DNA of 64,000 bases from Onchidella celtica (taxonomy: Eukaryota; Mollusca; Gastropoda; Systellommatophora; Onchidiidae), in contig OZ007569.1 of assembly GCA_963931925.1 (NCBI GenBank), positions 49,658,101 to 49,722,100 of the forward strand. Reading direction: 5' to 3'. The notes under the pieces were generated by a model that saw only the letters and a program-made list of their open reading frames with translations, was not told the origin of the DNA and made no database searches. The first letter of the stretch is position 1, and every line of letters begins with the position of its first letter. The translations under genes were made by a program, and so were the position numbers. This document shows positions 6,466 to 48,749 of this stretch, piece after piece.

Positions 6466-9400
6466 GTAAGTGAAATTTTATTAACTTTGTCATTAAAATC
6501 TATGGTTCAGCTGTATGCATGCCACTTTGGCCTCCATGTATCCTCAGCTTTCAGCATCGGCGAAGCTGTGTACGTCTGAGTGTTATTGGCCACGCCCATT
6601 TTGTAAGCCAAATGAGTGAAATCAATGAAGCGCGGTATGCATTTATCTGGATAATTTATTTTCAGGTGGCATTTGATTAGAATATTTTTAAGCTAAAGGC
6701 GAAAATTCTTCCAGTGGTCATCAGAATACACAGTTTTGTGTCATACCATTTCCGTACTCTATCTTGTCGACAATGCGCAGTGTCCCTTCTTCTCCTTACG
6801 GATTAGGCGATCCAAAAGTATGAAAATGCTAACACAAAAATATCAGAAAGCGTTTTATCCACGATACTCAAACTAAGATTTATGGTGACCTAATCTAGAA
6901 TGCATTTGTTCTATTTACGGTCTGGCCCAGCCTCTTTGAAGAAAAGAAAATTCTGCACGGTAGTTCAGCATAGCATCAAGTTTATTCAAAGCAGTTTATT
7001 AGCCTTATTTGCAGCATGGAATCTAGGAGGATTTCCTTCTCTATTCTGTTCAACTTTTCTTTCCTTCATGGCCTAAATTTGGGTAGATCTATGCTTTTTA
7101 TACTTGGCAACAACACCAAACTTAAGTTTCATTTTTGTGAAGATAGGACTCTTCAGCGGATTCCATATTTAGAATTTGAAGTCAGCAGAAGGATTTAAAT
7201 ATGGCTGCATATCAGTAATATTACTGCAAAACACTAGCTTTTCTCAGCATATTGGCTTAAATGTTGTTAAATGATTTTAAGGTAAAATGAACCCTGGACA
7301 AAAATATGGTTAGGCCTACATAGGTTTATTAATATTGTAAAAAGTTAGAAAGTTTTTTTTTTACTACTTTCACATTTTCCGCTCCGATCATTCACCACAA
7401 TTTACTGGTTTTCTCAAATACCGAAATTGAAATCATGATCATGACCTGAAACTTTTGCTGGCAGCTTTTTGTCTCGTAGAAGGTGTGAGGCCTAGGCTAG
7501 AGTTTATAAATAAGTTTCTTAAGTAGTCATTCTCAATTAATTGTACTCTTCTAAAACTGATGTTGTCATAATTCATGGGTCATTTAAATTCTGATTGTTT
7601 AGACAACCGTAAGCACAATTTGTGAACTTGTGGGAACAAATCAACTTTATAGTTAGATTTATTACAGTGTCAACTGTTTTCTTCTTTTACTTTTCTTGTC
7701 AACATTGATATTATACATGTAGATCTCATTCCCAATTCATCATTGTTAGTGGGATCATCCTAACTTAGGCTAAATACTGCTAATATTACAAGGTAAACAT
7801 GAACCTTAGTTTTTGTTACTTGCAAAAAGTGAAAAGAAGGAAAAACCTGTAAAATATCTGTCTTATTTGTGAGCTGCCCTTGAGTACTATTCAATGTCAT
7901 TCATGTTACCATTGTCATGATCACATTAGGATCATAAATGCCGTGCTAGGTTACGACGTCAGTGAGTTAATTTTTACGATCTTGTTGATTATAACCAGCG
8001 TAATTTGTCCTTGAGCTGTTCTCGTGAACAGTTTGTTTTGAATTTGAAACACCTTTTTTCTGATAGATGGAGAGAAGGAAGGGCGAGACAGAATAAATGT
8101 ATAGCTAGGAATGACAGAGCAGTTCTCGACCCCGTGATTTTGATTAACATAGATAAGGGGCGAGTAAAGGTAGTTTATTTAGACGCTTAGTTGGCGTTCG
8201 GAAATTCGTGCATAAGAGTAGAAAGCACGGGGTTTGAAGATTTTAGTAGTTAATGTTTCGCATTTTAATTTTGTCTAGACCGTAAAATTGACCTTGATTT
8301 TGGCGCAAGGCCATGACAAGCATAAATTAACATTGCAGGCTGAGCTGAAGCGACTGCACCAATCAAATGTATGAATCTGGACGGAAGGTCGAGACATAGC
8401 TTTAGTATTTAAACCCGTGCAGAGCTTAGATAGATGCCACATGTAGACAATCCATTTACGAGGTGGACGGCGATAGTCCTCAGCCAGATGAGAGACATAG
8501 AGATGCAGTTGAGCAGTCCATATTGTGAGGAGCGTGATGTTTTAAAGCTCCAGAGCCTAAGCTACTTGGTTTGATATGAACCCACAGCGTTTACATCCAG
8601 CGCTCTCACTCCCAGTGAGGGCCTAATGGTGAGAGTTCATACTAATTTGTAATGATGAAAGTGAACCGTTCTACTTACTTTTGAAGACAGTTTCAGAGCT
8701 ACCGCCAGACAACGCATGGTTGTACAAGCATTCTCAATGGCATGTCTAGAGGAAATGTCCATATCATAACATGTCTCATTGAATTAATAGAATTTAAACT
8801 GTTATATCCGTCGCCACGTGCGCGGATTCTATTTGGCATCTAACTCATATGACCTGCAAGTAGTTAGAGTGAATAAGTTAGTCTTTATAGAAAGCTGTAG
8901 TTTCATTAGTTAGATTCAGTTGCCTTTGAATTGATATTTATATTTATAATTATATTTGTTACATTAATTCCTGTAATTAAACTGCCCTACAGTTCTGCTA
9001 AAAATCAAAGTAATTGATTTATTTAGTTTTTAGAGTGCAAGTATTTTTTTTTGTGTGTTCGTCGATTGTGGGAGCGGACCTCGAAAGAGTGTCAGTCGAA
9101 TTCTCCCCATCTAACCCACATCGCGACAACCATAAATACCAAATTACTTGAACATTGACATGTAAAGCAAGTTAAACAACAAAATTCTTTTCTACGGTGA
9201 GAAAGAATTTATTGTAAATTTAATGGACCTGATCAGACATCGAGAAGTAGATTACTGCTCATTAATTGAAGAGCACACTCATGGTACACAATGGAAATAG
9301 AATCCTTACTGTAGATAATGAATTAAAAATGTTGAAGTCCTCTGTGAAATATCAGTCCACTTCCTGACATTGACAGATCATTTGATCTGCTTATTAGAAC

Positions 9401-13043: not shown

Positions 13044-13048
13044 ATTAT

Positions 13049-14273
13049 TGTCACGAGCAGAGTTAGGGTCTTGGGGATGTTACGACTGCACGAGAGGCAG
13101 CTAACTCACACTCGGACACAACCACACAAGAAAAGTATTAAATAACTAGAGCCTATATATGTCAGGCCGGTCAGGCCATAGTTTACATAAATATTAATAA
13201 CAAAACAAAAGACAATAGGGGTATATATTCAAACCAAAAAAACTCTAATTAATAACTTAACCAATGATATTCATGTAACTATGGAGGTACTGCAATCAAT
13301 AGCAAATAGGCATATTATACGAAACTAGATATCAATTTAAAGTGACAGTTGAGTCGCCACTGGCCAGTCGCCAGGCAAACTCTCCCTAAATCATATGGGC
13401 TTGAGTGTTAGGAGAGTCCAGTATGTTCAAAGCCTACAGAAGCACTCTTCGGCTTGTAGGTAATTTAAGCAGTTGCCAAAAGACTATATTTTATGCACAA
13501 TCACTATTCAATTCATCAACAATGTGCTATATTATTCCAATCATACTATGGCAATAGATCTATGATACAGGACACTCGTGGTCGAGTGCCAGCTGGGGTT
13601 TCCTTAGTCTTCCTATGAGGCTGTAGTTCTCTCTCTATCTCCGATCTCTATTATGCTTGAACAAATAAGATATATTACCATTGGTCACGCCTACTGGTAG
13701 GCGCGAACATCAATATAGCGCAGCGTGGGCTTTCAAAGGTCAGCCCACTCAGACCTTTCTTTCTAGAGCTCAGTCAGTCCGTTAGCAAGGACTTCTTGTC
13801 TTCAAAGCACACAGTTCAGGTACTGGTCAACCGGAGATACTTCACGACACGATGCTTCTGCTCGTCTGTATTCACCAAATCTGAACGTTACACGATGTTT
13901 TATACTATCTGGCTACCCAGCGTGCTAGTCCGCTGGCCCAATTAGTTCAGCTATCTCATAGGTCGAAACCTCCCCCCATTTTAATTGTAGTAATACGTCT
14001 GCACTATTCTACCAGCCAGTTAACGTGCAAAAACTTGTCTAGTCATACTTAATGTCAACTATCCCCACCTTGTTTCACCCCTACTCCATTACTTATTAAT
14101 CACGAACATTAAAACCCACAAGCGTGAATCTAACAGTTTAACTTTACATTTATTTACTCACCAACTATAATTCGCGAGGGCCGTTCAAGGCCACCAGCCA
14201 ATTTCTCATGGCCCTGGTAAAACAACAACAACTCACTCTCTGCGTGAGTTTTAACAACATCTGAATCATGACA
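13049..14273 (-). repeat. 3' LTR of the Gmr1-type element
   Basis: This 1225-bp LTR has TGTCA/TGACA ends. It contains the uninterrupted form of the site (13169-13179, GGTCAGGCCAT) that the LINE occupies in the other LTR. It is essentially identical to 21807-21937 plus 25181-26282 apart from a 3-base indel near 13245. Confidence 0.95.
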
Positions 14274-14882
14274 CATCCCCCACCCCAGTTAAAATTTGCA
14301 GTTTTAACGATATAACAGATTATCGTAAGGGGAAGGCATGAGTCGAGAAATTGCTCGAAAGGTGAACTTAACTAGGTAAGAACTAAGACTACTACAAAAG
14401 TTGAAAAAAACCTACAGGACGGGTATCATTGATGGACAAAACTTCATGAAAATCTTAAGGCTCCGTCCAAAAGTATATATCTCTCTGAGGATTAAATCTT
14501 ACCTCTAAATACGTAGACATTAACAATCATAACTCTAAAATTTTAGAGTACAACACTGATCCTGTGCGAATGTCATCAGGAATGCATACATACAATGAAT
14601 AATACTCAAGAAAAGATAACTATAGTAGCATCGATGGCATTAGTGGATCTGGACTCCTGGTCTGCCATGACTTCTCGTCCTCGACCCTGGGCAACAACGT
14701 CTGGTGTGGCCAAAATACGGGTCGACGTCAGTAAAATAGCTGTTGGATCAAAGGAAAGCAAAGGGGTGGGTGAAAAGTGTTCACAATGGGTGAACAATAT
14801 GTGATACCATCCTTCGGTCTCTGAATGAGGTGCTAATCAGTATCCAACGCCAATACATATGACAGACTAAAATACAACAAGA
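14274..14882 (-). other. 3' untranslated part and polypurine tract of the LTR element
   Basis: Next to the 3' LTR the minus strand reads ACTGGGGTGGGGGATG, a polypurine tract where plus-strand DNA synthesis would be primed. The remaining 590 bp up to the end of pol have no recognised feature. Confidence 0.75.
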
Positions 14883-17800
14883 TTAAGGTAACCGTGATAA
14901 TAGGTCGGCATGGACATTATCTCCACCAGGAATGGCCTTTATAATGAAGCGGTATTCCTGAAGGGCCAGACTCCATCTGGTCAAACGAGCGTTCTTGGCT
15001 CGGTTCGATTTTAAAAATAACAACGGTTTATGGTCTGTCTCGATGACGAATTCCGTCATAAGTAGGTAGCGGGAAAACGCGTCTACGGCGTATACAATCG
15101 CCAGGCATTCTCGCTCTATAATAGCGTATCTCTGCTCTCTCGGAAGTAATTTCCGGCTAGCGTACATACAAGGGCGCAATAAGCCATCTCTTTCCTGAAG
15201 CAAAACAGCTCCAATTCCTTGGTCCGACGCGTCAGTTCGGACGGTGAAGGTGCGCCTAATATTCGATAGGATAAGCAGCGGCGAACTGGAGAACAGTTGC
15301 TGTACTGTCGCGAGCGCGGTGGCGCACTGCGTATTCCAGGTAATTTTGTTGGGTCTGTCTTTTCTTGTAAGATCGGATAACGGGGCCGTAAGGGCCGAAA
15401 AATTAGGAACGAATTTCCGATAATAGCTTAAGAAGCCTAACAGGCTACGAACCTGCTTCTTAGTATGAGGAGCCTGGAGTTTTAAAATCTTACTTATCTT
15501 ACTGTCGTCCGGTGTTTGGACGCCTTTGGCGATCGTATGTCCCAGAAAGTTAATCTGCGTATAACCCAGGAAGACTTTGCTAGGCTTAGCTGTAAGCCCG
15601 GCATCTCGAAGTTTACTAAGCACTTGACGAAGTGCTTCTAAGTGGCCTTTCCAATCCGTATGGAAAGCGCAAATGTCGTCAAAGTAGCTTAGGACGCATG
15701 GTGTCTGCTGCAATAGGATGTTCATCATCCTCGCAAATGTCGCTGGTGCCGTTACGAGACCGAATGGCATGAATCTCCATTGCATGAGACCCATAGGGGT
15801 CTGAAACGCTGTGTACTGTTTACTGGCCTCTTCCATTGGGATTTGCCAGTAGCCTTTAGCCAAATCTATTTTCGAAAACACGGACGACTCGGCCAATCGC
15901 GCAAATAGATCTTCCTGATTCGGGATAGGTTCAGCATCGTAAATGGTTAGAGCGTTAAGCTTCCTGTAATCGATACAAAATCTAACGGAACCGTCTGTTT
16001 TCTTTACTAGTACAATCGGCGAGCAGTAAGGGCTCGTCGAGCGCTCAATGACTCCTAAGCTGAGCATCTTTTCCACCTCGGACTGTATGGTGTCGTGCGC
16101 TTGCTGCGGGCGCGGGTAGGGTTTGACAAACACGGGTACGTCCGAGTGCAACCGGATGACGTGTTGAACTAAGGATGTTTTACCCGGCAAATCAGTGAAT
16201 ACTGGCGAAAACTCCCGAACAAGATTCATGATGTCCTGTGTTTTACTTTGATCCAGCTCTGGATTGATATTAACGGAAGTCGCGTCCTCTGTGGCTTGCA
16301 AGGATAGGAGCGATCTAGTCATAGATAATGGCTCCCGGTCGTTGTCATCGATAGTGACCATCGCTGCGTTTGCTTGGGCCACAACATGGCATGAATGATC
16401 GTGATGAGTTTGATCATCGGTAAGATACTTTTTCAACATATTAATATGGTACACCTTATCGTTACCACGTATGGTAATGAGATAATTAACTCTCGAGAGT
16501 CGCTTTTTAACTAGAAAGGGGCCTTTCCAAGTGAGGAGTAGCTTGTTATTCGTTTCTGGTAGCAGCACCAATGCCCGATCTCCGACTGACAGGGTTCTTA
16601 ACCGACTACCCCGATCGCGATATCCTATAAATGACCTGGTCCGTACGCATGCAAATTGTCGAGCCAGGTCGCATGCATTAACTATTCTATGTCGGAGATC
16701 GACTATGTACTGATACGCGGATCGCGTATCAGGAACGTCGGTATCAGAACCGGCGTATAAATCGCGTAAAATGGCCATCGGGCCACGTGGTTTTCGACCG
16801 TATAAAAGTTCAAACGAGGAAAAACCCGTTGTCGCATTTGGGAGTTCCCTATATGCGAACAAGATGGCCGGAAGTCGACGGTCCCAGTCACCAGGTCTAT
16901 CGGCGGAAACACGTGCCAGCATAGTTTTCATGGTGGCATTCCAGCGCTCGCAACAGCCATTGGACTGTGGATGGTATGGCGACGTAAGTTTCTGCCTAAT
17001 GCCCGTGAGTTCCAATACTTTCCTGAAAAGGTCAGAGGTGAATTGCGGACCTCTATCGGATAATAATTCGGACGGGAATCCGATACGTGTGAATATGATC
17101 ACCAATGCCTCGGCGACGTGATCGGCCGATATTTCCTTTAAAGGGACAGCCTCAGGCCAACGGGTGGCATAATCGATTACTGATAGAATAAACCGATGGC
17201 CTCTATCCGAGTTCGGTAATGGCCCGACGATGTCGACGGCAACTCGCTGAAATGGAGTGGAAACCGGCGGCATCTCTTGTATAGGTGCCCGCGAAGTTTT
17301 TCCTTTGGGGGTTCTTTTCTGGCATGTATCGCAACGCGACACATAGCTATTTATGTCCCCGTAAACCCCGGGCCAAAAAAAATGAGACAGGACTCTCCAT
17401 TTTGTTCTCGCTTTGCCTTGGTGGCCCGCCAATGGCGTGTCGTGCGCGAGGCGGGTGATGTCTCGGCGAAATGATCTCGGTATGACCAATTGCAAAATAG
17501 TTTCGCGCTTTCCCCGAAAAACGCGATATAGGAGGTCGTCTTTAAGGCAGAACCTGGATGTATCCGGGTTGTCCGGATCAATCTTAGCAAAGAGGGGCTT
17601 TAGTGATGGATCTGTGCGCTGTTCGTTACGAAAAATCTCGGGGGTTACATTCAAATCGACGACAGGCGATCGTAATGTGTCGTCACTCTGGCGACGCGAT
17701 TGTTGTCTTGTCGTGACACACGCAATGTCGTTATCATCCCAAATCCCGAGTTCGCAATCGGAGACGTCCTTTAAGTGGGGAATATTCCCAATGATTAGGT

Positions 17801-19385
17801 CGGCGACCGGATTTGGTAGCACGCAGGCCGTGACAACACCAGTTATAAACGGTGTGTCAACATATATTTCCGCCAAACGAAAATGTTCAACTGAACCACC
17901 AAAAGTAATGCATGTCGCATCGCGATCCAGGAGTTGTGCAGGACGGACCAGCGATTCACGTACACCGACGGTCGTACAGCCTGAATCTCGCAATACGGAT
18001 GCTCGTATGGCGTTTACTCGTCCCTCATACAATGTCAGCGCGCCTCGCTCGTGGAGGGCGGACATAACTGGAATAACTTTATCTACGGTTTCGGCATTCC
18101 TAGTTCTGTAACCGCGGTTTTCGGTGAATGCTACAGAGCATGCATTTGCCGCATCTAATCTAACTCTGCATTGTCGCGCAATGTGACCTCCGGCGCCACA
18201 TCTATAACAGTAGACTGGATTATCATCCCTTCGAGGTGTACCTCGATTAGAAGGAAATGTGGGCGCTTGATAGTAGTTGTTACGCGGTCCTCCGGTAGGG
18301 AAAGGACGTGTATATCGGGGTTCCCAGTCCCGAGAAAATTTATGGGGATTCGGTTGCCTCCTGCTAACCGGCGGCTCGGACCGTGGACGAAGCTGCGGCG
18401 ACTGTCGAAAGGGCTGTCTTGATTGTCTCGACGGTACCGGTGTCTTAGTAGCAGCGCCGGCGTAACACGGTTCGCTTACTTTAGCTTTAGCTAACGATCG
18501 ATTAGGGTGAGCCGCAGCATACCGTTCCGCTATCGATGTTATCTCGACGGTAGTTTTGGGGGCTTGTTCCTTAAAATGCGCCACCAGGTCCGTGTGGCAG
18601 GACATATATATTTGGTCTTTAATTATCAAATCATATAGTTTCTTGTAGTTTCCCTCTTCCACACCGGCCAACTCAGTCCAACGGCTGAGTAGGTGGCGGA
18701 GGCGGTCCACGTAAGTAGAGAAATTCTCAGATGCCTCCGGCTTGCAATCGCGGAAACGCTTATGAAATCCATCTTCCGTATGTTGGAAACGCTTTAATAG
18801 CGCGGTCTTTAGAATGTCATAGTCCCTAGCGTCATCAATAGTGAGGCTATGGAAAACTTCCAACGCTCTCCCTGTCAAAAGATTGGCGAGGCATGACGTG
18901 TACTCACTACGCTGCCATCCCGCGCAAACGGCATGGAGTTCGAAGCGGTGTAGGTAGGAATCAATACGATCAACCTTATCATTAAAGGTTGGCAATTTAG
19001 GCTTCGTTTTATTATTGGAAGTAACTTCCGGAGCCCCGGTAGGTTGGGCTTGCTTCGCTTCTAACTGTTTCAAAGCGAGCTCGTACTCTCTTTGAGCCTG
19101 TTTTTCCGCGCGTTCCGCGGCTCTATCGTCTCATTCCGCAGCTTTTTCTTGGCGTAATATCTCCGCGGCCTTTTCTTGGCGTAATATCTCCGCGGCCTTT
19201 TCTTGGCGTAATATCTCCGCGGCCTTTTCTTGGCGTAATATCTCCGCGGCCTTTTCTTCTCGTAATCTCTCCGCGGCCTTTTCTTCTCGTTCTTCTTTCA
19301 GTTTCTGGTCTACCCAAGAAGCACGCTGAGCTTCCGGTATGCCAAATGATTGGGCTAGTTCCAAATATTTCTGTAGTTCGGCCAT
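14883..19385 (-). CDS. gag-pol of the Gmr1-type retrotransposon
   Basis: In transcription order: a coiled-coil N-terminal gag segment with KAAEILRQE repeats (19300-19140); a gag core with a CX2CX4HX4C zinc knuckle, CYRCGAGGHIARQC (about 18210-18168); an aspartic protease with a DSG motif (about 17985); an integrase with an HHCC zinc finger (H..H..CDTC, about 17444-17320) and a DD35E core ending in the glutamate of CCER (about 17234-16947); an integrase C-terminal GPF module (about 16525); an RT with VRFCIDYRKLN and YFDD (about 16076-15534); and an RNase H with TDAS and TDHKP (about 15251-14886). Gag and pol are in one frame, so no ribosomal frameshift between them is implied. The coding region appears almost whole, with about one break. 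Integrase upstream of RT is the reverse of ordinary Ty3/Gypsy and is the hallmark of the Gmr1 group. No chromodomain was seen. Confidence 0.92.
19140..19290 (-). repeat. 27-bp tandem repeat within gag
   Basis: About five copies of a 27-bp unit (core TTCTTGGCGTAATATCTCCG on the plus strand) encode the nine-residue repeat KAAEILRQE. The outer copies are more diverged. The repeat predicts an extended charged coiled coil and is prone to copy-number change. Confidence 0.9.
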
Positions 19386-21806
19386 GATATCGGTCGATAA
19401 TGCGATATAATAATGTCCTAATCGAGGACAGCTTCTGAAAAATCTCTAACTTTATTCTCCCTTGAAGCAATTTATCAATTGCACTCTGCGGGTGTTCGTT
19501 CCTGCAGTATGAACGAAATTAACGAAATCAACAACAAACTGTACGTCTTAGTCAACCAAGTAGTGGTTGAGCTATCTCAGTGATCACTTAACTCCACGTA
19601 TTTCTCCTAATCCTCAAGCAGTCAGTCTACTGCTTCCGTGATTGGTCGTTTACTAACGATACCAATGTAATATTCCCAGTGTATTTTCCGTACACTCCTA
19701 GCAGCGTTCCCTCTGCTATAAATCGGAATAAATCAATATTCACGATATTAACTTCCTTGGCTATACAAGCCTAACAACTCTAATATCCAGATTATCTCTC
19801 AACGTGCCCTAGACACGTGATTTATCCCAGGCAATAATATAGCAAGTATGAATACAAAATTGTCACAAATCCCAGACTGGGAGATGTAATAAGTTATGAC
19901 AGGACAACAATCACGAACAACCAAGTTAACACTTAACAGAACAATCCATCAGACTCACACATTTATTAAACATAATTATACATATAATAGCGCAATTACA
20001 TATATTATATTATTGAATGACTGCCGTACAACGGCCTTATTCTCACACACACGCTCCCTCGGATCCACAATCCGGTAGTTACTCCTAAAGGCACTTCGGC
20101 CTCAGCCTCTCCCCTCAGGGTCTTAATAGTACATTAATAAGTTACTGGCACCGCAGTCTCTCAATATCCCCTTCCTACTGTCATACACCTTAACACTCCC
20201 CTAGCACCTCCGCAGGGCAATAACACATTATTATTTCCATAGCCATCAACATGGCAACAACATAGTATCAGTTCACTAGCCTATCAACATGGCAACAACA
20301 TAGTATCAGTTCACTAGCCTATCAACATGGCAACAATATAGTCTCTCATTCACTCTCATATCTACGTCCCTGTCCGTGGCCTGACTGCCACGACTTTATG
20401 TGCCTCTACTGTCCTGCACTGACAGCCTCACTTCTGGCCTATGTGTGGCCTCCGGCCCTATGCTGGCCTATCCCCTGTGCTCATCGAGGTGGCTCTGCGG
20501 CCCGTCCCCGACACCTACAAGAATAACATTACATTGGTATAATACCCTACCATTTCTATTCACTCCACCTCTCCTTACAATCCATGAAGCGTACACACAC
20601 TAGTTCACCTTTCACTCACCACACATCTTACGGTAACACACCTCCATCGGAGTACACACTACTCACTCGCGCTACAAATCCATGCACTCACTTTCGTCTA
20701 TCGCTCATGGCGCACATTGCTATATCCAATATCAAGGACTTCCACATTCCTCACATATACTTATTCACATCATGGTAATAGACGAATATAATATAATACA
20801 TCAATCATAATAATCAATCGACATTCTACATACCAGTCATAACTGGAAAGACTCTCACTAGTCTTCTCGACTGCTTCCCCTTTATGTCCGCCCGATGGGC
20901 TTTTATTCACACGTCCGATCCCTAGGACCTTCTAACTTGCAGTGATAGTTATACAGCGCTTTCGCCTCCTTCAGACCCCGCCCCACTACTACTCACAACA
21001 GCACGCTTAACTTGCTGTCTACTGTGAGTCCTTACTCTACACCCGCTCTGTAGCAATCCCCTTAATTGCACTCACTCCACTCGTGACAAAAATATAATAA
21101 TGCAACACTATAATGGAAAAGAATTACATGGAGAGTAAGACGAGACTAACAGAAAGAACAAACGACAACAGACCTGACTAACCTGAAACTATCTACAAAA
21201 AGGTAAGAAAAAGAACAGGAGAGACGTCTTCCTAAAATACGAGGAAGATAGAACGCTAACAATCTATACGAATAACAGGTCCCTACAGAACTATTCAAGG
21301 CAAAGCATACCTCACACCCGGTTTAAACCACCATCTAGATCGACTAGTCTGGCAAGAAAGGTAAGCTGAGTCTCGATCCCTTCCAACCTCCCGCCTATCT
21401 AATCTAACACAAAAGAAAAATAATGCCTGTCAAAAGTACGGGAGCTGGAACGACGAACCCCTCAAACGAAGACAAATACAGATGGTTCACTTAACTGGGC
21501 AAAATGGACTGGCTCTTTCCTTTGGTCCACAGCGCTGGTCTTGTCTTTTCCTGATGCTAGCTGTCAGTCCCTCGTAGTGGTCCCAGGATCAATGACGAGA
21601 GGACATGCCAGACATGTGGGGGAGAAACAAAAAAAAAAAATCAGCAGTATACAAAACTATAAACTACAAAAATGACATAAATAACAGTGGAGTCTAGAGT
21701 GGTAGACCTGCAGCTGTTGACGGGGTCCTCTTCAGATGATAGTAGTGTCCTCTAGATGTCAGAGGGTGACGGGTCCTCTTCAGATGTCAGTGGGGTCCCC
21801 TCCAGA
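19386..21806 (-). other. Long leader (5' UTR) of the LTR element with tandem repeats and a candidate primer-binding site
   Basis: The leader between the 5' LTR and gag is about 2.4 kb, unusually long. It holds a 38-bp tandem repeat (20243-20343; unit begins ATCAACATGGCAACA; about 2.7 copies). At the LTR border, two bases inside the element, the minus strand reads TGGAGGGGACCCCACTGAC (21804-21786). A start of TGG is expected for a tRNA primer-binding site, but I cannot assign the tRNA. The adjoining 90 bp (21716-21806) contain imperfect repeats of GGGTCCTCTTCAGATG. No other frame with recognisable domains was found. Confidence 0.7.
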
Positions 21807-21937
21807 TGTCACGAGCAGAGTTAGGGTCTTGGGGATGTTACGACTGCACGAGAGGCAGCTAACTCACACTCGGACACAACCACACAAGAAAAGTATTAAA
21901 TAACTAGAGCCTATATATGTCAGGCCGGTCAGGCCAT
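21807..21937 (-). repeat. 5' LTR of the Gmr1-type element, left portion
   Basis: This matches 13049-13179 and ends in one copy of the LINE target duplication, GGTCAGGCCAT (21927-21937). Confidence 0.95.
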
Positions 21938-21957
21938 CATCATCATCATTGCCTTTC

Positions 21958-22450
21958 TCACCCTGGATCAGGGTATAGGCCACCAACAAACACCTTCCAT
22001 CCCTCTCTATCATGGGCCAGCCTCTTTACATTATTCCAAGTCTTTCCGCTTCGTTGCACATCATTTTCTCTGGCTCTTCTCCACGTTCCGCGCGGCCTTC
22101 CTCTTGATCTCTTGCCCTGGGGATTCCAGTCCAATACCTTCTTCGTGATGCTGTTTCCTGGCCTCCTGAGAGTGTGGCCGATCCATCTCCATCGCCTCCT
22201 ACCAATTTCCTCTCTGACTGGGTTCTGTCTTGTTCTTTTCCATACAATTTCATTGCTGACCTTGTCTGTCCATCTGATCTTAAGTAGCTTCCTCAAACAT
22301 CTGTTGATGAAAACTTGGATTCTCTTTATGCAGGCCTGGGACGCATTCCAAGTCTCACATCCATACAACAGGACTGACTTCACGTTCGAGTTGAATATCC
22401 TCAGCTTTGTTTTTAGAGATATATCCTTGGTTCTCCAAATCTTGCTTAAG
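21958..22450 (-). pseudogene. LINE C-terminal segment, shifted frame
   Basis: This continues the LINE protein after a single frame change near 22450: SKIWRTKDISLKTKLRIF, then SVLLYGCETW, RWRWIGHTLRR and GKRSRGRPRGTWRR. These are typical of the region after the RT in RTE-like elements (a basic, Trp-rich tail). It ends about 20 bp before the tail repeat, so the 3' UTR is very short, as is usual in this group. Confidence 0.85.
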
Positions 22451-24974
22451 ATGTGAAAGCTGCCTGTGCCTTTCCAATTCGTGCTTTGACTTCTGCCTCT
22501 GTTCCTCCCTTATTGTTAATGATACTACCAAGATAGCAGAAGGACTCTACATCTTCCAGTGGTTGATCTCCTACTGTGACTTGTTCGCTTAGGGGTGCAA
22601 CAATTTTTAGGACCTTCGACTTCGCGGGATGTATCCTCAATCCAATAGATTCTGAAATTTTGTTTAGAGCTGTAGTCTTTGCTTGCATCTGGTCGTGTGT
22701 GTGCGACAATAGTGCCAAGTCATCTGCAAAATCTAGATCGTCCAGCTGTGTCCATGGGGTCCATTGTATGCCATTTCTTCCTCCACTGGTGGTTTCTTTC
22801 ATAAGCCAATCAATCACCAGGATAAACAGAAATGGGGACAGCAAACAACCCTGCCTAACACCAGTCTTGATATCAAAGCTGTCAGTAAGCTCACCATCAT
22901 GTACGACTCTGCAACTTGTCCCCTCGTACATGCTCTTGATAAGATTCACCATCTTCTCTGGGATTCCATAATGTCTCAATATTCTCCACAGTGTTTCTCT
23001 ATCGATGCTATCAAAGGCCTTCTCGTAGTCAAGGAAGTTCACTATCAGTTGGGAGTTCCACTCTAGCGACTGCTCTACTATGATTCTCAGCGTGGCGATC
23101 TGGTCGGTGGTTGATCGATTACTCCTGAAACCAGCTTGCTCCTCGCGAAGTTTTTGGTCTGTTGCATTCTGTATTCGCTTGAGAATAATCCGATTGAAAA
23201 CCTTTCCTGGGATGGAGAGAAGTGTGATTCCTCTGTAGTTACTACAATTGCTGAGGTCCCCTTTTTTTGGGAGCTTCACGAGCTGTCCTTCCTTCCAGTC
23301 CTTTGGAAACTTGCCTCCGATCCAAATCCTCGAGAATAGTGAGTGCAGACCCTCTGCAGCCCCAGCAGCATCTGCCTTCAGCGCCTCTGGTGGGATCTGG
23401 TCTGGTCCAGCTGCCTTCCCTCGATTTAACTGCTTTATGGCATCATTAATCTCTGCTTTAGTCGGAGGGTCGCAACTGATCGGTAAATCATTTCTTGCGG
23501 GTAGAATGTCGGGTGGGTTGCTTGGTGGAGGTCTGTTCAAGAGGCTGTTAAAATGTTCTATCCATCTTTTTGCCTGAGCTTCCTTTCCAAAAATAGCCTT
23601 CCTGTTGTAATCCTTGACAGGAACTTCAGGTTTTCCATATTTTCCAGCAAGAGTCTTTGTAGTCTGGTAGAGGATCCTCATGTGTCCTCCTGTTGCTGCC
23701 TTCTCTGCTTTCTCTGCTAACATTCCTATGAACTCCTCTTTGTCTTTTTTAATTGATTTTTTGACCTCTTTAGCTGATGCTCGGTACTCTTCCTGGTTAC
23801 CAACTCTTGAGCTTCTTGTACGACTTGCATTTACCCGTTCTTTTAGGTCTCTTCTTATCCTTATCAAGTCCAGTGATTTTTGACTGATCCATTCCTTGTG
23901 TTCCACTTTCTTTTCCCCAATAACATCCTGACATGTCGATGTAAATACTCCTTTTACCTTAGCCCAGTGAGTCTCCAAATCTACTGTCTCTTCGAGGTCA
24001 ACAAGGGGTTTGAATCTATTCCTCAGTGTCAGCTGGAACTCTTCCTTCTTGTCTCCATCCAGAAGGCTCACTTGAAACTTTCTCCTCTTTGTTCCTGCTC
24101 TGGTACCTTGTTTCTTGAGGCGGAGTTTGAGTCTTGCCAGCAGCATGTGATGGTCAGATCCAACATCTGCTCCTCTCTGTACTATGACATCCTCTAGTGA
24201 GCGTCTGAATCGTCGGGTGATGCAAAAGTGGTCAATCTGATTTTCAGTTACTCCATCCGGTGAAATCCAAGTGGCCTTATGGATCCTCTTGTGTGGGAAT
24301 ACTGAACCTCCAATCACATAGCTGTTAAATGCGCAGAAACTTGCAAACCGCTCTCCATTCTCATTCATTTGTCCTAAACCATTGCACCCCATAATGTCCT
24401 CATACCCTGTATTGTCCTGTCCTATCTTGGCATTGGCGTCTCCCATTATAATGTTCACATCTTTTCTTGGCAATGTGTCAACTATTTCCTGAAGCTGGTT
24501 GTAGAAGTCGTCCTTGTCCTCATCGGTTGCTTCATTTGTTGGGGCGTATATCTGCACAATGTTCATGTTGATGTTCTTGTTCTTAGTAGTAAATGATGCC
24601 AATATAATTCTCCTTCCATAGGGTTCCCATCCCCTCAGTGACCTCTGGGCGTGCTTGCTCAAGATGATCGCTACTCCTTCTGTATGCTTTTTGTCCTCCC
24701 TTCCAGAATACAAAATCTTTTCCCCAGTATTAAGTTGTTTCAGTCCGGACTGTATCCAGCGGGTCTCGCTAACTCCAAGTATGTGCAGTCTGTATCGCCT
24801 CATCTCCATTGTAACCTGGGCACTCTTTCCTGCTTCATACATGGAGCGGACATTCCACGACGCAATCCGGAGTGACTTGCTTGATGAAGGAGCAGTCGGG
24901 CCAGTGGAGTCCTTTCGGCTTTGTCCATTGTCCTTCATTGAATCTACAGGTGCAGATGCTCCCCCTTCTCCCAA
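22446..24974 (-). CDS. LINE endonuclease-reverse transcriptase, main frame
   Basis: The N-terminal endonuclease shows LRIASWNVRSM, SETRW, QIYAPTNEA, IIMGDANAKIG and GSDHHML. The RT follows with LPKKGDLSNCSNYRGITLL, EEQAGFRSNRSTTDQ, DYEKAFDSIDR, GVRQGCLLSPFLF and the catalytic FADD. It nicks the target and copies the LINE RNA from the nick. The first in-frame ATG is at 24938, but the frame is open for another 43 codons without ATG, back to a stop at 25106-25104. The conserved frame leaves this one close to 22450, just after KAQAAFT, and continues in the C-terminal segment below. The copy therefore has one frameshift and otherwise looks intact. Confidence 0.92.
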   Translation of the reverse strand: MGEGGASAPVDSMKDNGQSRKDSTGPTAPSSSKSLRIASWNVRSMYEAGKSAQVTMEMRRYRLHILGVSETRWIQSGLKQLNTGEKILYSGREDKKHTEGVAIILSKHAQRSLRGWEPYGRRIILASFTTKNKNINMNIVQIYAPTNEATDEDKDDFYNQLQEIVDTLPRKDVNIIMGDANAKIGQDNTGYEDIMGCNGLGQMNENGERFASFCAFNSYVIGGSVFPHKRIHKATWISPDGVTENQIDHFCITRRFRRSLEDVIVQRGADVGSDHHMLLARLKLRLKKQGTRAGTKRRKFQVSLLDGDKKEEFQLTLRNRFKPLVDLEETVDLETHWAKVKGVFTSTCQDVIGEKKVEHKEWISQKSLDLIRIRRDLKERVNASRTRSSRVGNQEEYRASAKEVKKSIKKDKEEFIGMLAEKAEKAATGGHMRILYQTTKTLAGKYGKPEVPVKDYNRKAIFGKEAQAKRWIEHFNSLLNRPPPSNPPDILPARNDLPISCDPPTKAEINDAIKQLNRGKAAGPDQIPPEALKADAAGAAEGLHSLFSRIWIGGKFPKDWKEGQLVKLPKKGDLSNCSNYRGITLLSIPGKVFNRIILKRIQNATDQKLREEQAGFRSNRSTTDQIATLRIIVEQSLEWNSQLIVNFLDYEKAFDSIDRETLWRILRHYGIPEKMVNLIKSMYEGTSCRVVHDGELTDSFDIKTGVRQGCLLSPFLFILVIDWLMKETTSGGRNGIQWTPWTQLDDLDFADDLALLSHTHDQMQAKTTALNKISESIGLRIHPAKSKVLKIVAPLSEQVTVGDQPLEDVESFCYLGSIINNKGGTEAEVKARIGKAQAAFTS

Positions 24975-25180
24975 GATAAAAGACTGATTTGAAGTATTTG
25001 CTTGTGTTTCTGTAACTGGTTTATTTTTTACAGGGTGGGTAGTTGGCCCACCGCCAACTGGCTCTTCTCGGGAGACCAGGACCTTTGCACCTTTAGTCGC
25101 CTCTTACGACACGCAGTATCACGTCAGATGTATTCTCTGCTGTCCCTCTTCTACAAGAGAGCCCCGCATCTGCACGGGCG
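24975..25180 (-). promoter_or_regulatory. LINE 5' leader with a conserved-looking hairpin
   Basis: The minus-strand leader contains GTCGTAAGAGGCGAC (about 25110-25096), a perfect 4-bp stem GTCG/CGAC with a 7-base loop, followed directly by TAAAGG. RTE-type leaders are known in some lineages to carry HDV-like self-cleaving ribozymes. A hairpin followed by such a junction could be part of one, but I could not fit a complete double-pseudoknot by eye. Confidence 0.35.
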
Positions 25181-26282
25181 GGTCAGGCCATAGTTTACAT
25201 AAATATTAATAACAAAACAAAAGACAATAGGGGTATATATTCAAACCAAAAAAACTCTTAATAACTTAACCAATGATATTCATGTAACTATGGAGGTACT
25301 GCAATCAATAGCAAATAGGCATATTATACGAAACTAGATATCAATTTAAAGTGACAGTTGAGTCGCCACTGGCCAGTCGCCAGGCAAACTCTCCCTAAAT
25401 CATATGGGCTTGAGTGTTAGGAGAGTCCAGTATGTTCAAAGCCTACAGAAGCACTCTTCGGCTTGTAGGTAATTTAAGCAGTTGCCAAAAGACTATATTT
25501 TATGCACAATCACTATTCAATTCATCAACAATGTGCTATATTATTCCAATCATACTATGGCAATAGATCTATGATACAGGACACTCGTGGTCGAGTGCCA
25601 GCTGGGGTTTCCTTAGTCTTCCTATGAGGCTGTAGTTCTCTCTCTATCTCCGATCTCTATTATGCTTGAACAAATAAGATATATTACCATTGGTCACGCC
25701 TACTGGTAGGCGCGAACATCAATATAGCGCAGCGTGGGCTTTCAAAGGTCAGCCCACTCAGACCTTTCTTTCTAGAGCTCAGTCAGTCCGTTAGCAAGGA
25801 CTTCTTGTCTTCAAAGCACACAGTTCAGGTACTGGTCAACCGGAGATACTTCACGACACGATGCTTCTGCTCGTCTGTATTCACCAAATCTGAACGTTAC
25901 ACGATGTTTTATACTATCTGGCTACCCAGCGTGCTAGTCCGCTGGCCCAATTAGTTCAGCTATCTCATAGGTCGAAACCTCCCCCCATTTTAATTGTAGT
26001 AATACGTCTGCACTATTCTACCAGCCAGTTAACGTGCAAAAACTTGTCTAGTCATACTTAATGTCAACTATCCCCACCTTGTTTCACCCCTACTCCATTA
26101 CTTATTAATCACGAACATTAAAACCCACAAGCGTGAATCTAACAGTTTAACTTTACATTTATTTACTCACCAACTATAATTCGCGAGGGCCGTTCAAGGC
26201 CACCAGCCAATTTCTCATGGCCCTGGTAAAACAACAACAACTCACTCTCTGCGTGAGTTTTAACAACATCTGAATCATGACA
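25181..26282 (-). repeat. 5' LTR of the Gmr1-type element, right portion
   Basis: This matches 13169-14273, starting with the second copy of the LINE target duplication and ending TGACA at the ATTAT duplication. Confidence 0.95.
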
Positions 26283-28260: not shown

Positions 28261-28827
28261 CCAGCTGTCTGTCATCTGTCCATATCTGTGTGTCTGTCTG
28301 CCTGTGTATCTTATCTGAGATGACATTCTGCAAGGCATGCCTCTGGGTCTTAGTGCTGATTGACTTTGCCTGGTAGTAGGAAATTGCTTTTATTTTACTG
28401 TATTAAAAGAAAGAAAAAAAAGCAGAAGTAACAGGAGTATGTGCTGTCAGTAATATTAAATTTTGACAGAATTTTCATTATTATTTTTATTCGGGTAAAA
28501 GTGGTGGTGTCGATTTGAAGCTCTGAGACGCTAATGAAATTAAGGATAAACATGTATCAGACAGTTTGGGGGCCCAGCGTATTTTTCGTGATGAGGATTT
28601 CAATGTTATGAAATGAATATAAAATTACCCAGTTAAGCCGCAAACAGCCTGACAATATCAGTTCTTGGCGTATTGAGTTCGGTTACGTTGTGAAATCGGT
28701 TTTGATTTGGTATGGACATTCATCTTGAGTAATCCAGATGATGATCAACTGCAGCACAACACGTTGTACAATGTAGTAAGATGTCAGTAAAATGCGTGGA
28801 AGGTACCAGTTTGCCCACTGGCTCGGG

Positions 28828-28960
28828 GAATACACAGATGTGATTTTTAAAGTTGAGTTTCGATCACAAATGTGTAAACTGAGGCCCAGAACGAAATTTC
28901 CTGTCATACTTTTTAATTCTACTTGAAGGAAATGCGTCTTTTTTTTCTGGTTCAAAATGT
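28828..28960 (+). repeat. Dispersed repeat, third copy of the 50.8-kb family
   Basis: It shares GAATACACAGATGTGAT, AATGTGTAAA, the AACGAAATTTCC block, TTCTACT and GAAATGCGTCT, in the same order and spacing, with both units at 50789-51694. Confidence 0.75.
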
Positions 28961-31565
28961 CGGAACACTTTCTTCTGTTCAACTCAGTGGTGACTCAAAA
29001 TCAATGAAAGAATTAACAATTTAGCGAACTTTGAGACCTTTTAAAATATGCCCTCGTACACCTCTACGTATTTTTCTACGCATAATATGATAGTTTGTAG
29101 AATTTAAGGCTCAGCGATATAAAAGCCTTCACGGTTGCATTGGAGGCCTTACTTCCTTTATAGTATGATTAACACGGTAATGCCAACAGTGGCAGTAACA
29201 AACTTACCACTGATGAGCGTAGGAGCAATAACCGTATTTGTGAAGTTTAACGTCAGCATTCTGGTCGTGCCGAAGTATCCTTGAACACGGAAGTAGTTGG
29301 TTATCATAGAGAAGAAAAAGAACTGTCAAGGACTGGAAGAAACGAAGCAAAACCCAGCATAACCATCCCTTGCCTTTGTCTTTTAGTATTATGTATAATT
29401 GGAGTATCGATTCTTATTGAGAATCATCCAGAATGACAGCATGTCAGAAAAACGGAACCATGTACCATTCTCATGTAGAACATTAATGAAAACTCCAGAT
29501 ATATCCGTAATGCATTTTTTGTTTTGCTTTGCTTTACAAGGTAAGACAGATTTGTTATGAATAAAATGTAGTCCTTAAAGCATATAAATTCGGTTAATTC
29601 CAGTTGGTAAAAATTAAAATCAATTACTGTCGTAATAATATAGTCATTACTAGCATTCTCTTGTGTGTTAATTAGAGTAGACCGGCATCAAAAGTCCAAT
29701 GTACCAAAACAACTATCACGACAACAACAGACTATTAGCAGGTATTACCGGGAGGATTCTTAGACCAGCAACGCCGAATGCCTGCGAGAAATGGCTTATC
29801 TGTCAAGACAACCCATTCTAAGAAGATCCGCATTGTCTGAAACGCGTAGCCTGTCAGGTTCGGGCTGCGAATGCACGCTGAAATTATGCATACTATTTTG
29901 TTAAATGAATGCACGTATTTTATTAACTCGGCTAGTATGTCTGGAGTGAAACTTGACATTGGCCTTAACCGCATTGTCTGAGTTGTATTGTTTTAATAGC
30001 TGTTAATGTGGAAATATTTGTTCTGCCCCCCACCTAATGCACTTAGATAAAGTGTCATGTCATTTTGCCCATCCATTACACCGAACAACCCTCTTCTGGT
30101 CTATGCATGGTAAATCCGGTAAAATGCCATAACACCCGCCTTGTTATTCATTTTCTAGCCACTTTATCGTTCATCAGCCACTTAATTTTTTGAAAACATC
30201 ATTTGGAAATAATGTGAAAATATCAATTTCCCAAGTTTATTATAGTAGAAGCAATAAAAAGCCATTTTGGGGCGGTTGTTCAAAATGGAATTGGAAACCA
30301 TCGGAACTGTTTTGATATGACCCTAGAATATAGAATATCTTTCATGGGGACCTTTATTTATTATTCCTTCAATAATTAAGCGAACTTATGGCAGAGTGCT
30401 TTTGGAGACTATGTTTTATTTGCAACTTTGTACTAATTTTCTCTCACTGTTCGTTTATCTGTCAGACAATGCCTGTCCACCTTGCGGCTCTTTCTTTCTC
30501 TCACCCTGTAGCTCTTTCTGGCCGTTCTCCCCTTTCCACTCCCTTCCACATCCTCCTCTTTGGTCTCACTATTGTCTTCTTAATAATTTGTTGACATATG
30601 TCAGTGGATGTGGCGGAATCGGGCGGCTTGGAAATTTTTATATCTAAAAAAAAAAAAAATAATAATAATAATTCTGAGACGATTTCAAGCAAACTATTTT
30701 AACTGAGTGCAGAAAAATGGCATATGTTTCATATTATTTGCATAGAAAATGTTTCCCCCTATGGATGGGGTTTTCTCAGGAATTTGCTCTTTCACCTGAA
30801 GCCCTTTTCCGCTCTAGCCACACTCTCTTTGTGATGTTATTTTTAAATGGCACCCGAGGTACGCCCCCCTTCCCCCCTAGTTGAAAAAAAAAAAAAAGAA
30901 AAGAAAAATCAACTGCAACTTCAGAGCTCGTGATTTGTTTAAAAGGCCGGGCAGAAACAACAATAACAACAAACTTACGACTCCTGCATTAACTATAGTA
31001 GGCTGTAAGGGGAAAGAAACCCATGTAATTACAGTGCAGCGTGGTATACATTTTCGTTCATTGTGGTCTTGCTTTGTTTGCGTCAATGCCTTCCTTTGTT
31101 TGACAAACAGAGGCTCAATATTGGAAAATGCAAAGAGTCGCAAACCCGGATAAGTCTACATTATTTGGTTCGTCTGGGTAAACCCGCTATCAAAAATAAC
31201 AACAATAATAGAAGGTAAGGTTTTATAATAACAGAGTATCCCAGAAGAATGGAAACTTCAGTACCGAAAGGGTTTAGAATAGATGGAGTTTTCGATCGAC
31301 TGTCTGAGACACTGGCAAAAAGTTCTTTGTTCGTTGGATGATCATTTTAAGGTGATTTCACAAAATGCCTTTTTCTTGAAAATGCTGTTTCGAGAAAATC
31401 GCGATTTAGTTTTGCGGTCTCTAAATTTAAATGTAGCAAACAAAATGCAGTTTTTATAGACTGAAGTGGCACATTGTGATGTCTTTTAACTTTGTGTAAA
31501 GTTTTATTTGAATTGGTGCTGAATTAAATGATATTTGAAAAAAAAAAAGTGTTTTGTAAGATTAA
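28961..31565. other. Intronic stretch, nothing recognised
   Basis: There are no domains or RNA genes, only A runs near 30645 and 30885 and short frames without motifs. Confidence 0.4.
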
Positions 31566-37617: not shown

Positions 37618-38080
37618 AAAAGGGACAAGGTGGTCTAGAGGCAAGGTGCTCGCCTCTCGTGCCAAGGGTCCCGGGTTCGAAACCCGGGCCGTGCAGGCAT
37701 GTTGGAAGTTTGGGATTTTTCTCATATTTTCGTGTCCCTGATTCTATTGAGGGGTAGGATCGAGTACCTAGTCTTCTCGGATAAGGACGAAAAAATTCGG
37801 AGGGCCCGTGTGCACGTTGCGCACGTTAAAGATACCTTGGCAGTTGGAAATCGTAAAGAGCAGGCCGAACAGGCCGCTGCCCGGGCAAAATTAAATTAAA
37901 TTCATCTCTACCAGTCCCTCCACCTCCCCCCTCATCTCCCCCCCCCCCCAAAAAAAAAAAACGCCGACCGGCGCTGCACTGTGGCGACGACGTGCCTGCT
38001 CCAGTTATAACTGGGCTGCAATGGCACAAAGGCAAAATTTCCCAAATGGGATTAAAGAGTTATACAAATACAAATAAAAG
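37618..38080 (+). mobile_element. tRNA-derived SINE with a conserved-type central core
   Basis: The head has a pol III box A (TGGTCTAGAGGC, about 37631) and box B (GGTTCGAAACC, 37674-37684) at tRNA spacing. Its 5' acceptor sequence has no 3' partner and there is no tRNA end, so it is not a tRNA gene. The body holds GGCCCGTGTGCACG, then GCGCACGTTAAAGATACC (about 37803-37836). This resembles the core shared by invertebrate SINE superfamilies of the Meta-domain type; I recall it from molluscs and cnidarians. The tail is A-rich (ATACAAATACAAATA) and AAAAGG occurs at both edges as a possible short target duplication. Confidence 0.75.
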
Positions 38081-47275: not shown

Positions 47276-47497
47276 GACTGCTCTTGTCCATAGCTTCCGC
47301 CCCGCACCGCTTTTTTACGGAAAAATGACGTATGAAAACGTAAAACACTCCTTGCCTCTGTATACTTGTCCACAGCATCTATTCCGCTCCGCTCCTCACT
47401 ACTATGGAGGCAGTTAGTGTATTATTTTTTCATACGTCCTTTTCCGTCTTGAAAAAAAAAAAAGTGGAGCGGAAGCTGCGGACAAGCGCAGTAAACT
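47276..47497. mobile_element. Hairpin-forming MITE, inverted repeats of about 80-90 bp
   Basis: The left arm (47276-47353) holds CTTGTCCATAGCTTCCGC, ACGGAAAA and GACGTATGAAAA. The right arm (47405-47497), reverse complemented, holds CTTGTCCGCAGCTTCCGC, ACGGAAAA and GACGTATGAAAA. A partial third copy of the end motif (ACTTGTCCACAGC) sits in the loop. There is no coding capacity. The superfamily is unclear. Confidence 0.75.
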
Positions 47498-48749
47498 GAA
47501 TAGAAGAAAGTGTTCCCACAGTTTGAGCCGGAAATAAAGACGCATTTTCTTCAAGTAGAATTAAAATAGTTCGACAGGAAATTTCGTTCTGCGCCTCAGC
47601 TTACACATTGGTGATCGAAACTGAACTTTAAAAATCACATCTCTGCTTATTCCCCGAGCCAGTGGGCCAACTAGTACTAGTAAGTGTAGCAGTTGAAACT
47701 GGCACTGTAGATGTGACTGTGATGTTGGTACAGATGGTTTGTAGCGGAAGCCGTGGAACTGATTCATAAATTACAATAATTGGACGTCGTTGGAAGAACC
47801 AGAAGTATTTTAAACTAAGAAATAAAATTGACATCTTGGAGAAATACCTTCGTAATACTTTCTGAAACAGGAGAAAATGGGTATTGATAGGGAGGTGAAA
47901 GATGAAGCGACATTAATTTCTTTCTTTCTTGTTTTTTTTTTTTCACTTTTTTTTTCCATTGTTTATTGAATCTGATATTTTCTATCGATCGGTGTCCTGT
48001 TAACCTTATTTTACACTTGGGGTCTGACATACCCCAAACACTCACTGTTTTAATTATAACATCTCCCAACCAAATAGGGTTAAACATGAGCAAAAGAGAG
48101 AGGGGGTGGGGGGGGGGGGTGAGAGAGGGTGCGAAATTATGAGAAAATAACGGAGATGAAGTTATTCATACAATCTCTGATAGGTTGAAAACTTCCTGAA
48201 TCACGACTAATTTGCGTCTCGGCTCTCGTGTTTAATCTTTCCATTCGCGGGTGGATAGCGAGAAAAGAACTAAATGTAACGTGTCATGATGATTTTTCTT
48301 TGAAGGTTTTATACGGATAATAATAAAGAGTCCTAATAATATAGTGATTTTCTGTTGTTAACAAGAATCCTTTTTATAAAATATTATTCATAACTTTGAA
48401 TTATTCATGGGGCGTAATAGAACTTAGATATGTTGTTTTTTTTAATGGCGGGAAAAGGGGGGGGGGGCAGGGGTTTGCTCGTCACAAAATAATTGGTTGA
48501 ACGTAATAAATTCGTTTTTCTATTCATCAATATTTGAGAACTCAAATATTCGTGAAACCACTTCCATAACTCTGGTTGCCATTTCAGTAAGTGCACTTGT
48601 TTTGTCCAGAGGGGATTTGGCCCTCAAAATTACAGCATTGGCATTTCGAAAGTACCCGACAAGAATGCTCTTACTTTACATAAAAATTCAGTGAAATAGG
48701 TAGTCAAGAGCGACATTGAATTTTGCTCGAGATCCCCTTGAATCTGGAA

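Follow-up and report, generated by a model that had tools for sequence, protein, structure and literature searches.

The Gmr1 clade of Ty3/Gypsy long terminal repeat (LTR) retrotransposons was reportedly described by Goodwin and Poulter in 2002. The mark of this clade is an integrase encoded ahead of the reverse transcriptase (RT) (PMC6238403, PMC2774666), it is counted among the clades present in several phyla (PMC8556966), and Gmr1-like elements of protostomes, namely crustaceans, were published as early as 2013 (PMC3587641). A Gmr1-like gag is said to be the source of the SCAN domain, the SCAN gene family being described as vertebrate specific (PMC3424704), and the homology between SCAN and Gmr1-like gag is also given in PMC4592553. 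A large mollusc survey names Gmr1 once, as background (PMC6238403), and we found no report in the open-licence literature of a molluscan Gmr1 member or of a SCAN domain in a mollusc retrotransposon. Here we describe an element on the minus strand of a 64,000-nucleotide stretch of the Onchidella celtica genome (C3:49658101-49722100; hereafter the window) which is, with high probability, a molluscan Gmr1-like Ty3/Gypsy LTR retrotransposon, with a SCAN-like capsid and a pol in which protease, integrase, RT and RNase H follow one another in that order. The integrase-first Gmr1 kind is known already, protostomes included, and the SCAN link in a protostome is what is most worth following.

Based on Pfam matches, the minus-strand frame 14883-19073 (1396 amino acids) carries, in this order, SCAN (below cut-off), zf-CCHC (residues 288-303), Integrase_H2C2 (531-589), rve (607-702), RVT_1 (1023-1181; 109 bits), and RT_RNaseH_2 followed by RT_RNaseH (RNase H, 1246-1374). 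The HHCC motif of the integrase is spaced x6-x29-x2, its catalytic triad is in place (D614, D673-(35)-E709), GPF falls at residue 851 within the integrase module, and the YFDD of the RT lies at residue 1130. Counted up to the in-frame stop of this copy (Table 1), the frame runs over 14883-19130. Matches and motifs together bear out the succession of zinc knuckle, integrase (HHCC, DD35E, GPF), RT (YFDD) and RNase H that an earlier note on this DNA, made from its letters, had claimed. All the marks of Ty3/Gypsy (Metaviridae) are present, namely Gypsy-type RT, RNase H and integrase, HHCC, DD35E, GPF, LTRs and a short target duplication, and the best solved match is Ty3. The change is one of order, with the integrase placed mid-chain and the RT with its RNase H at the chain end. 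Ty1/Copia elements share the order protease-integrase-RT-RNase H; however, the Copia RT has a Pfam model of its own, which is absent among the 12 Pfam families matched by the window frame (E up to 0.1), whose RT and integrase match the Gypsy-matching models.

The search of the genome (1.14 Gb, 43 contigs) scored 109 copies of the window's family, hereafter family A, among 15,406 candidates, a lower bound that includes the window copy; at least 109 copies are 98% or more identical to it in the integrase piece. Integrase precedes RT in 29/29 other fetched copies (L010-L038, the window copy being L009), and RT precedes integrase in none of the 30, unlike Mag, CsRn1 and Osvaldo, in which RT and RNase H lie upstream of integrase. 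Several fetched copies are broken, their RT being incomplete or in a frame other than that of the integrase (L017, L026, L030, L031, L032). The suspicion that the window holds an ordinary Gypsy element rearranged in this one copy, which the earlier note had tied to the existence of independent copies with RT before integrase, draws on the odd order itself and on nothing further that we found; it is refuted by the 29 other copies, all of them integrase-first. Integrase also lies close behind gag in two further families (B and C, below), and in 72 of the 109 scored copies the frame measures 1480 amino acids or more from stop to stop. A local rearrangement has practically no probability left.

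In the 1128-nucleotide integrase piece, 9 to 15 base differences (median 12) separate the window copy from the 29 others, which are 0 to 11 bases apart from one another (median 4; 8 of 406 pairs are identical). Since the 29 are the best-scoring of the other copies, divergence within the family at large may exceed this. The window copy appears to have been inserted recently and to come from a sublineage slightly unlike theirs. With the LTR piece 13500-14100 the best 40 of 1216 candidates were scored, and all are listed at 99% or more. Where copies neighbour one another elsewhere (n=9), their spacings are 7506 (three times), 7507, 7479, 7478, 7419, 7132 and 7129 nucleotides, six of the nine falling at 7478-7507, against 7525 from LTR to LTR in the window when a 1228-bp insert is discounted. 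Four integrase pieces lie exactly 7506 apart in a tandem array at C4:60439169-60462814 and three are spaced 7129 and 7132 at C14:7100856-7116244; both arrays are probably units sharing LTRs.

For comparison, 18 other Gypsy loci (L001-L008, which are one family, and L039-L048) were taken from the top of the PF00665 list, in which the best 150 of 10,142 candidates were scored. RT lies before integrase in 17 of them, and at the remaining locus, L043, integrase follows RNase H; lacking an RT match, this locus was omitted from the RT tree. The integrase-first rows fall on one side of a branch supported at 97/96 in the RT tree (13 rows) and at 95/93 in the integrase tree (17 rows). These larger trees omit the family A copies other than the window's (and L010 in the RT tree), L002-L008 and 25/30 SCAN loci. 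In both trees L046, a locus of ordinary order, joins the integrase-first group as its nearest sampled row; by pairwise score it is clearly nearest for the window's family and barely so for family B, and for family C it ties with L039 and L045. No relatives outside the genome were found in the viral_contigs or genome_contigs searches. A change of order needs a recombination step at some time, and a chimera joining an RT and an integrase from different Gypsy lineages could be imagined on that ground. The two trees, however, agree on the group and both place L046 nearest among the sampled rows, thin as that sample is, and in pairwise comparison the family C integrase scores the same against L046 as against two further families of ordinary order; we regard a chimeric origin as quite improbable.

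The order is accompanied by a SCAN-like gag. Within the window frame the SCAN-like match covers the predicted capsid (Table 1), scoring 21.4 bits when the whole frame is taken. It has no counterpart at E up to 0.1 in five frames that occupy the place of gag in ordinary families, among them L053, which is without a recognised gag or protease domain; a sixth frame is a transposase and was not counted. A genome search with SCAN alone, blind to order, scored the best 150 of 9579 candidates, 150/150 of them above the cut-off. At the best 30 of these loci integrase lies downstream within 1.5 kb in 27, in several cases in another frame, and RT or RNase H lies within 1.5 kb downstream in none. The 30 loci hold at least two families besides A: family B (L065), whose capsid is 33% and whose RT is 48% identical to the window's, and family C (L054 and kin), whose capsid is 22-27% identical. 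The SCAN score is 49.5 bits in family B and 49.8 bits in family C. Because both were found through SCAN, it is their order, and not their SCAN, that constitutes the test. The RT of family B sits downstream of its integrase, as read in one copy (L084), and for family C we infer the same. The Gmr1-type order claimed in the earlier note is real, family-wide in A and full in B, but in family C it stands only in part, as integrase behind gag. A structure model of the capsid stretch was too poor for a structure search (pLDDT 45). SCAN-type gag was also seen in unusually long frames at C9:1912536-1912802 (2124 amino acids) and C4:3070423-3070692 (1836 amino acids), possibly further integrase-first families or fusions.

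The protease was assigned by motif. D[ST]G (residues 363-365) and a LIIGN-like motif occur in the window frame, and both recur in two other families. A profile comparison of this stretch with two ordinary Gypsy proteases brought the motifs into register, but the match was weak (probability 5.7%, E 0.0067), and its structure model (pLDDT 32) was useless, being too poor for a structure search. Given the two motifs, this weak profile result and the lack of a Pfam match, the protease that the earlier note had claimed is likely, and no more than likely.

Several points weigh against the assignment to Gmr1. There is no Pfam protease match in the window frame, the protease resting there on motif, and such a match is present in two ordinary-order frames (L049 and L052). 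The window SCAN score lies below the Pfam cut-off (Table 1), SCAN in families B and C is there by construction, and 3/30 SCAN loci (L059, L066, L078) have no integrase. The ordinary-order set is narrow, all close kin save one family (L046); the tree program warned of long branches; and once near-copies are removed the support drops to 94/93 in the RT tree (7 rows) and to 93/94 in the integrase tree (8 rows), neither value being starred. The trees contain no named sequences of Gmr1, Mag, CsRn1 or Osvaldo, which leaves room for an integrase-first order that arose independently in molluscs, outside the Gmr1 clade. Such an origin would also fit the large mollusc survey, whose Table 1 lists 21 Gypsy clades with no Gmr1 row (PMC6238403). 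That survey, however, built its trees from RT and RNase H, so that one of its MolGy clades may be integrase-first without this having been noticed (PMC6238403). Moreover, a SCAN-like capsid is assigned in the literature to Gmr1-like elements, and as predicted here it supports Gmr1 kinship. Keeping these arguments in mind, we consider an independent origin unlikely, though the least improbable of the alternatives, and interpret the data as consistent with a Gmr1-like element.

Set beside described members, the element shares with the Gmr1 clade the integrase upstream of RT, the Gypsy-type RT and integrase, the SCAN-like gag and the lack of any frame of 80 or more amino acids between pol and the 3' LTR, which holds for the window copy; it differs in its mollusc host and in a gag N-terminus built of repeats and probably variable in length. 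Gmr elements of the pufferfish order have gag-pol in one frame of 1506-1634 amino acids (PMC11117352, Table 2), as do, by frame length, 72 of the 109 scored copies here but not the window copy; the LTRs of those fish elements measure 337-518 bp, against 1225 bp here. The crustacean GyRex4, GyRex5, Gychoro2, GyMaja1 and GyLiva4 are, like it, protostome and Gmr1-related (PMC3587641). GyRex4 and GyRex5 are similar to an element from fish that has the Gmr1 structure, but these two are known from partial RT/RNase H or integrase (PMC3587641), whereas here the order is read in whole copies. LGF3 of Lamellibrachia, also from a lophotrochozoan, was placed with Gmr1 by trees of its RT, RNase H and integrase (PMC8220671); it comes from an annelid, and the likeness drawn here is by description, not by sequence.

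What the mollusc adds are long-framed, young, high-copy Gmr1-like elements in a group for which the clade table of the survey has no Gmr1 row (PMC6238403), together with a link between the unusual pol order and a SCAN-like capsid within one genome; the kinship of such a gag with SCAN had been discussed mainly for vertebrates. Integrase ahead of RT has been no bar to at least 109 copies, whether the family spread autonomously or was helped in trans. Invertebrate elements now make it possible to test where SCAN, called vertebrate specific in PMC3424704, came from. We hypothesize, giving the idea an even chance, that integrase-first order and SCAN-type capsid form a single ancient module, passed down together in protostomes and deuterostomes alike. 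The SCAN domain of vertebrate transcription factors would then descend from retroelements that long predate the vertebrates and that persist in a present-day mollusc as at least three diverged families, abundant and probably active.

The coding part is near-complete, as the earlier note had it, but the interval it gave, 14883..19385, omits the LTRs and two insertions, with which the whole element spans 13049-26282 (Table 1). The two LTRs show no substitution and one 3-nucleotide indel over 1225 bp, which upholds the claim of a young copy. BLAST of the first part of the 5' LTR against the 3' LTR gave 1105/1109 identities, with three gap positions and one mismatch, and this sole mismatch, at 25180, falls outside the LTR at the edge of an insertion. 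A 5-bp target duplication, ATAAT, flanks the element on both sides. The non-LTR element nested in the 5' LTR carries Exo_endo_phos and RVT_1 (Pfam) in an 842-amino-acid frame, 22446-24974, followed by a separate 3' frame, and its tail consists of ATG repeats; given its position inside that LTR, it is the younger of the two. The 131-nucleotide repeat found at 13049 and 21807 was considered as part of the non-LTR element and rejected, self-comparison assigning it to the end of the split LTR. The 1228-bp insert is provisionally read as a solo LTR of another element; a 38-nucleotide tandem repeat (20240-20342) was noted inside it. No complement of 9 or more bases to the stretch after the 5' LTR was found within the element when self-priming was checked.

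Table 1. Features of the element in the window (positions counted from the first letter of the window).
Feature	Positions	Strand	Basis
3' LTR, 1225 bp, TGTCATG...CGTGACA	13049..14273	-	direct repeat of 5' LTR parts; ATAAT at 13044-13048 beyond
Polypurine tract GGGGTGGGGGA, two bases before 3' LTR	14276..14286	-	sequence
RT (YFDD) and RNase H	14952..16007	-	Pfam RVT_1, RT_RNaseH, RT_RNaseH_2
Integrase: H2C2, DD35E core, GPF module	16428..17483	-	Pfam and motifs
Probable protease, RDSGC to LIIGNI	17781..17990	-	motifs common to three families
CCHC zinc knuckle	18165..18212	-	Pfam zf-CCHC
SCAN-like capsid region	18507..18770	-	Pfam SCAN 24.6 bits, E 2.2e-5, cut-off 27
In-frame TGA cutting gag of window copy	19131..19133	-	
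Gag N-terminus with 9-amino-acid repeats (27-nucleotide units), charged, coiled-coil-like to the eye	19134..19385	-	
Solo-LTR-like insert in 5' untranslated region, 1228 bp, TGTCA...TGACA, duplication ATTTT (5 bp)	19861..21088	-	
Presumed place of primer-binding site, after 5' LTR (TC, then TGGAGGGGACCCC...)	21780..21806	-	position only
5' LTR, last part	21807..21937	-	131/131 identical to 13049-13179
Non-LTR retrotransposon nested in 5' LTR, 11-bp target duplication ATGGCCTGACC	21938..25180	-	Pfam
5' LTR, first part, up to non-LTR insertion	25181..26282	-	aligned to 3' LTR; ATAAT precedes

The repeat-built gag N-terminus described in the earlier note rests on a real 27-nucleotide repeat (19135-19285, 5.6 copies), its likeness to a coiled coil being judged by eye. 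Among the 109 scored family A copies the stop-to-stop frame is shorter than 1480 amino acids in 37, and in 60 it measures exactly 1486, 1495, 1504, 1513 or 1522 amino acids; these steps of 9 amino acids equal the 27-nucleotide unit, and therefore the array probably varies in length among copies, as judged from frame lengths. The single gag-pol frame, also claimed, is to judge by frame length whole in the 72 copies of at least 1480 amino acids, but in the window copy it is broken by the TGA, which interrupts gag beyond the repeat array, between the coiled-coil-like stretch and the capsid. With gag and pol sharing one frame, the ratio of Gag to Gag-Pol might need another device, and the UGA could be taken for a programmed readthrough signal setting it; however, the frames of those 72 copies are, by their length, too long for a stop there, and a stop upstream of the capsid would leave no capsid, which makes programmed readthrough highly improbable. 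Because of the stop in gag the window copy is unable to make an intact Gag-Pol of its own, and other copies would have to supply it with both Gag and Pol.

From the anatomy of the element, in which the sequence marks are what was observed, and from general knowledge of LTR elements, we infer expression, particle formation, processing and current activity along the following lines. A transcript would be driven from the LTR and one gag-pol polyprotein chain made from it; particles would assemble through the SCAN-like capsid, and the putative protease would free integrase and RT. Synthesis would be tRNA-primed at the site after the 5' LTR, with plus-strand priming at the polypurine tract GGGGTGGGGGA, and integration would produce the 5-bp duplication. 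The window copy would represent a recent insertion, later struck by the non-LTR element.

The protostome host proposed in the earlier note agrees with the genome itself. The haemocyanin beta-sandwich domain PF14830 marks molluscs, and 33 matches to it (E up to 0.001) lie in three clusters on contig C7, near 0.3, 2.5 and 59.4 Mb; it was matched in 0/14 control genomes, a weak control in which the six named ones are prokaryotes. In the window no Rfam match was obtained at gathering scores, including at a tRNA-Glu-like sequence (37625-37695, ARAGORN) that may be a short interspersed repeat. Two stretches of about 180 bp, 28803-28981 and 47497-47677, are 89% identical in inverted orientation; together with weaker copies near 50.9 and 51.4 kb they are perhaps a short repeat family.

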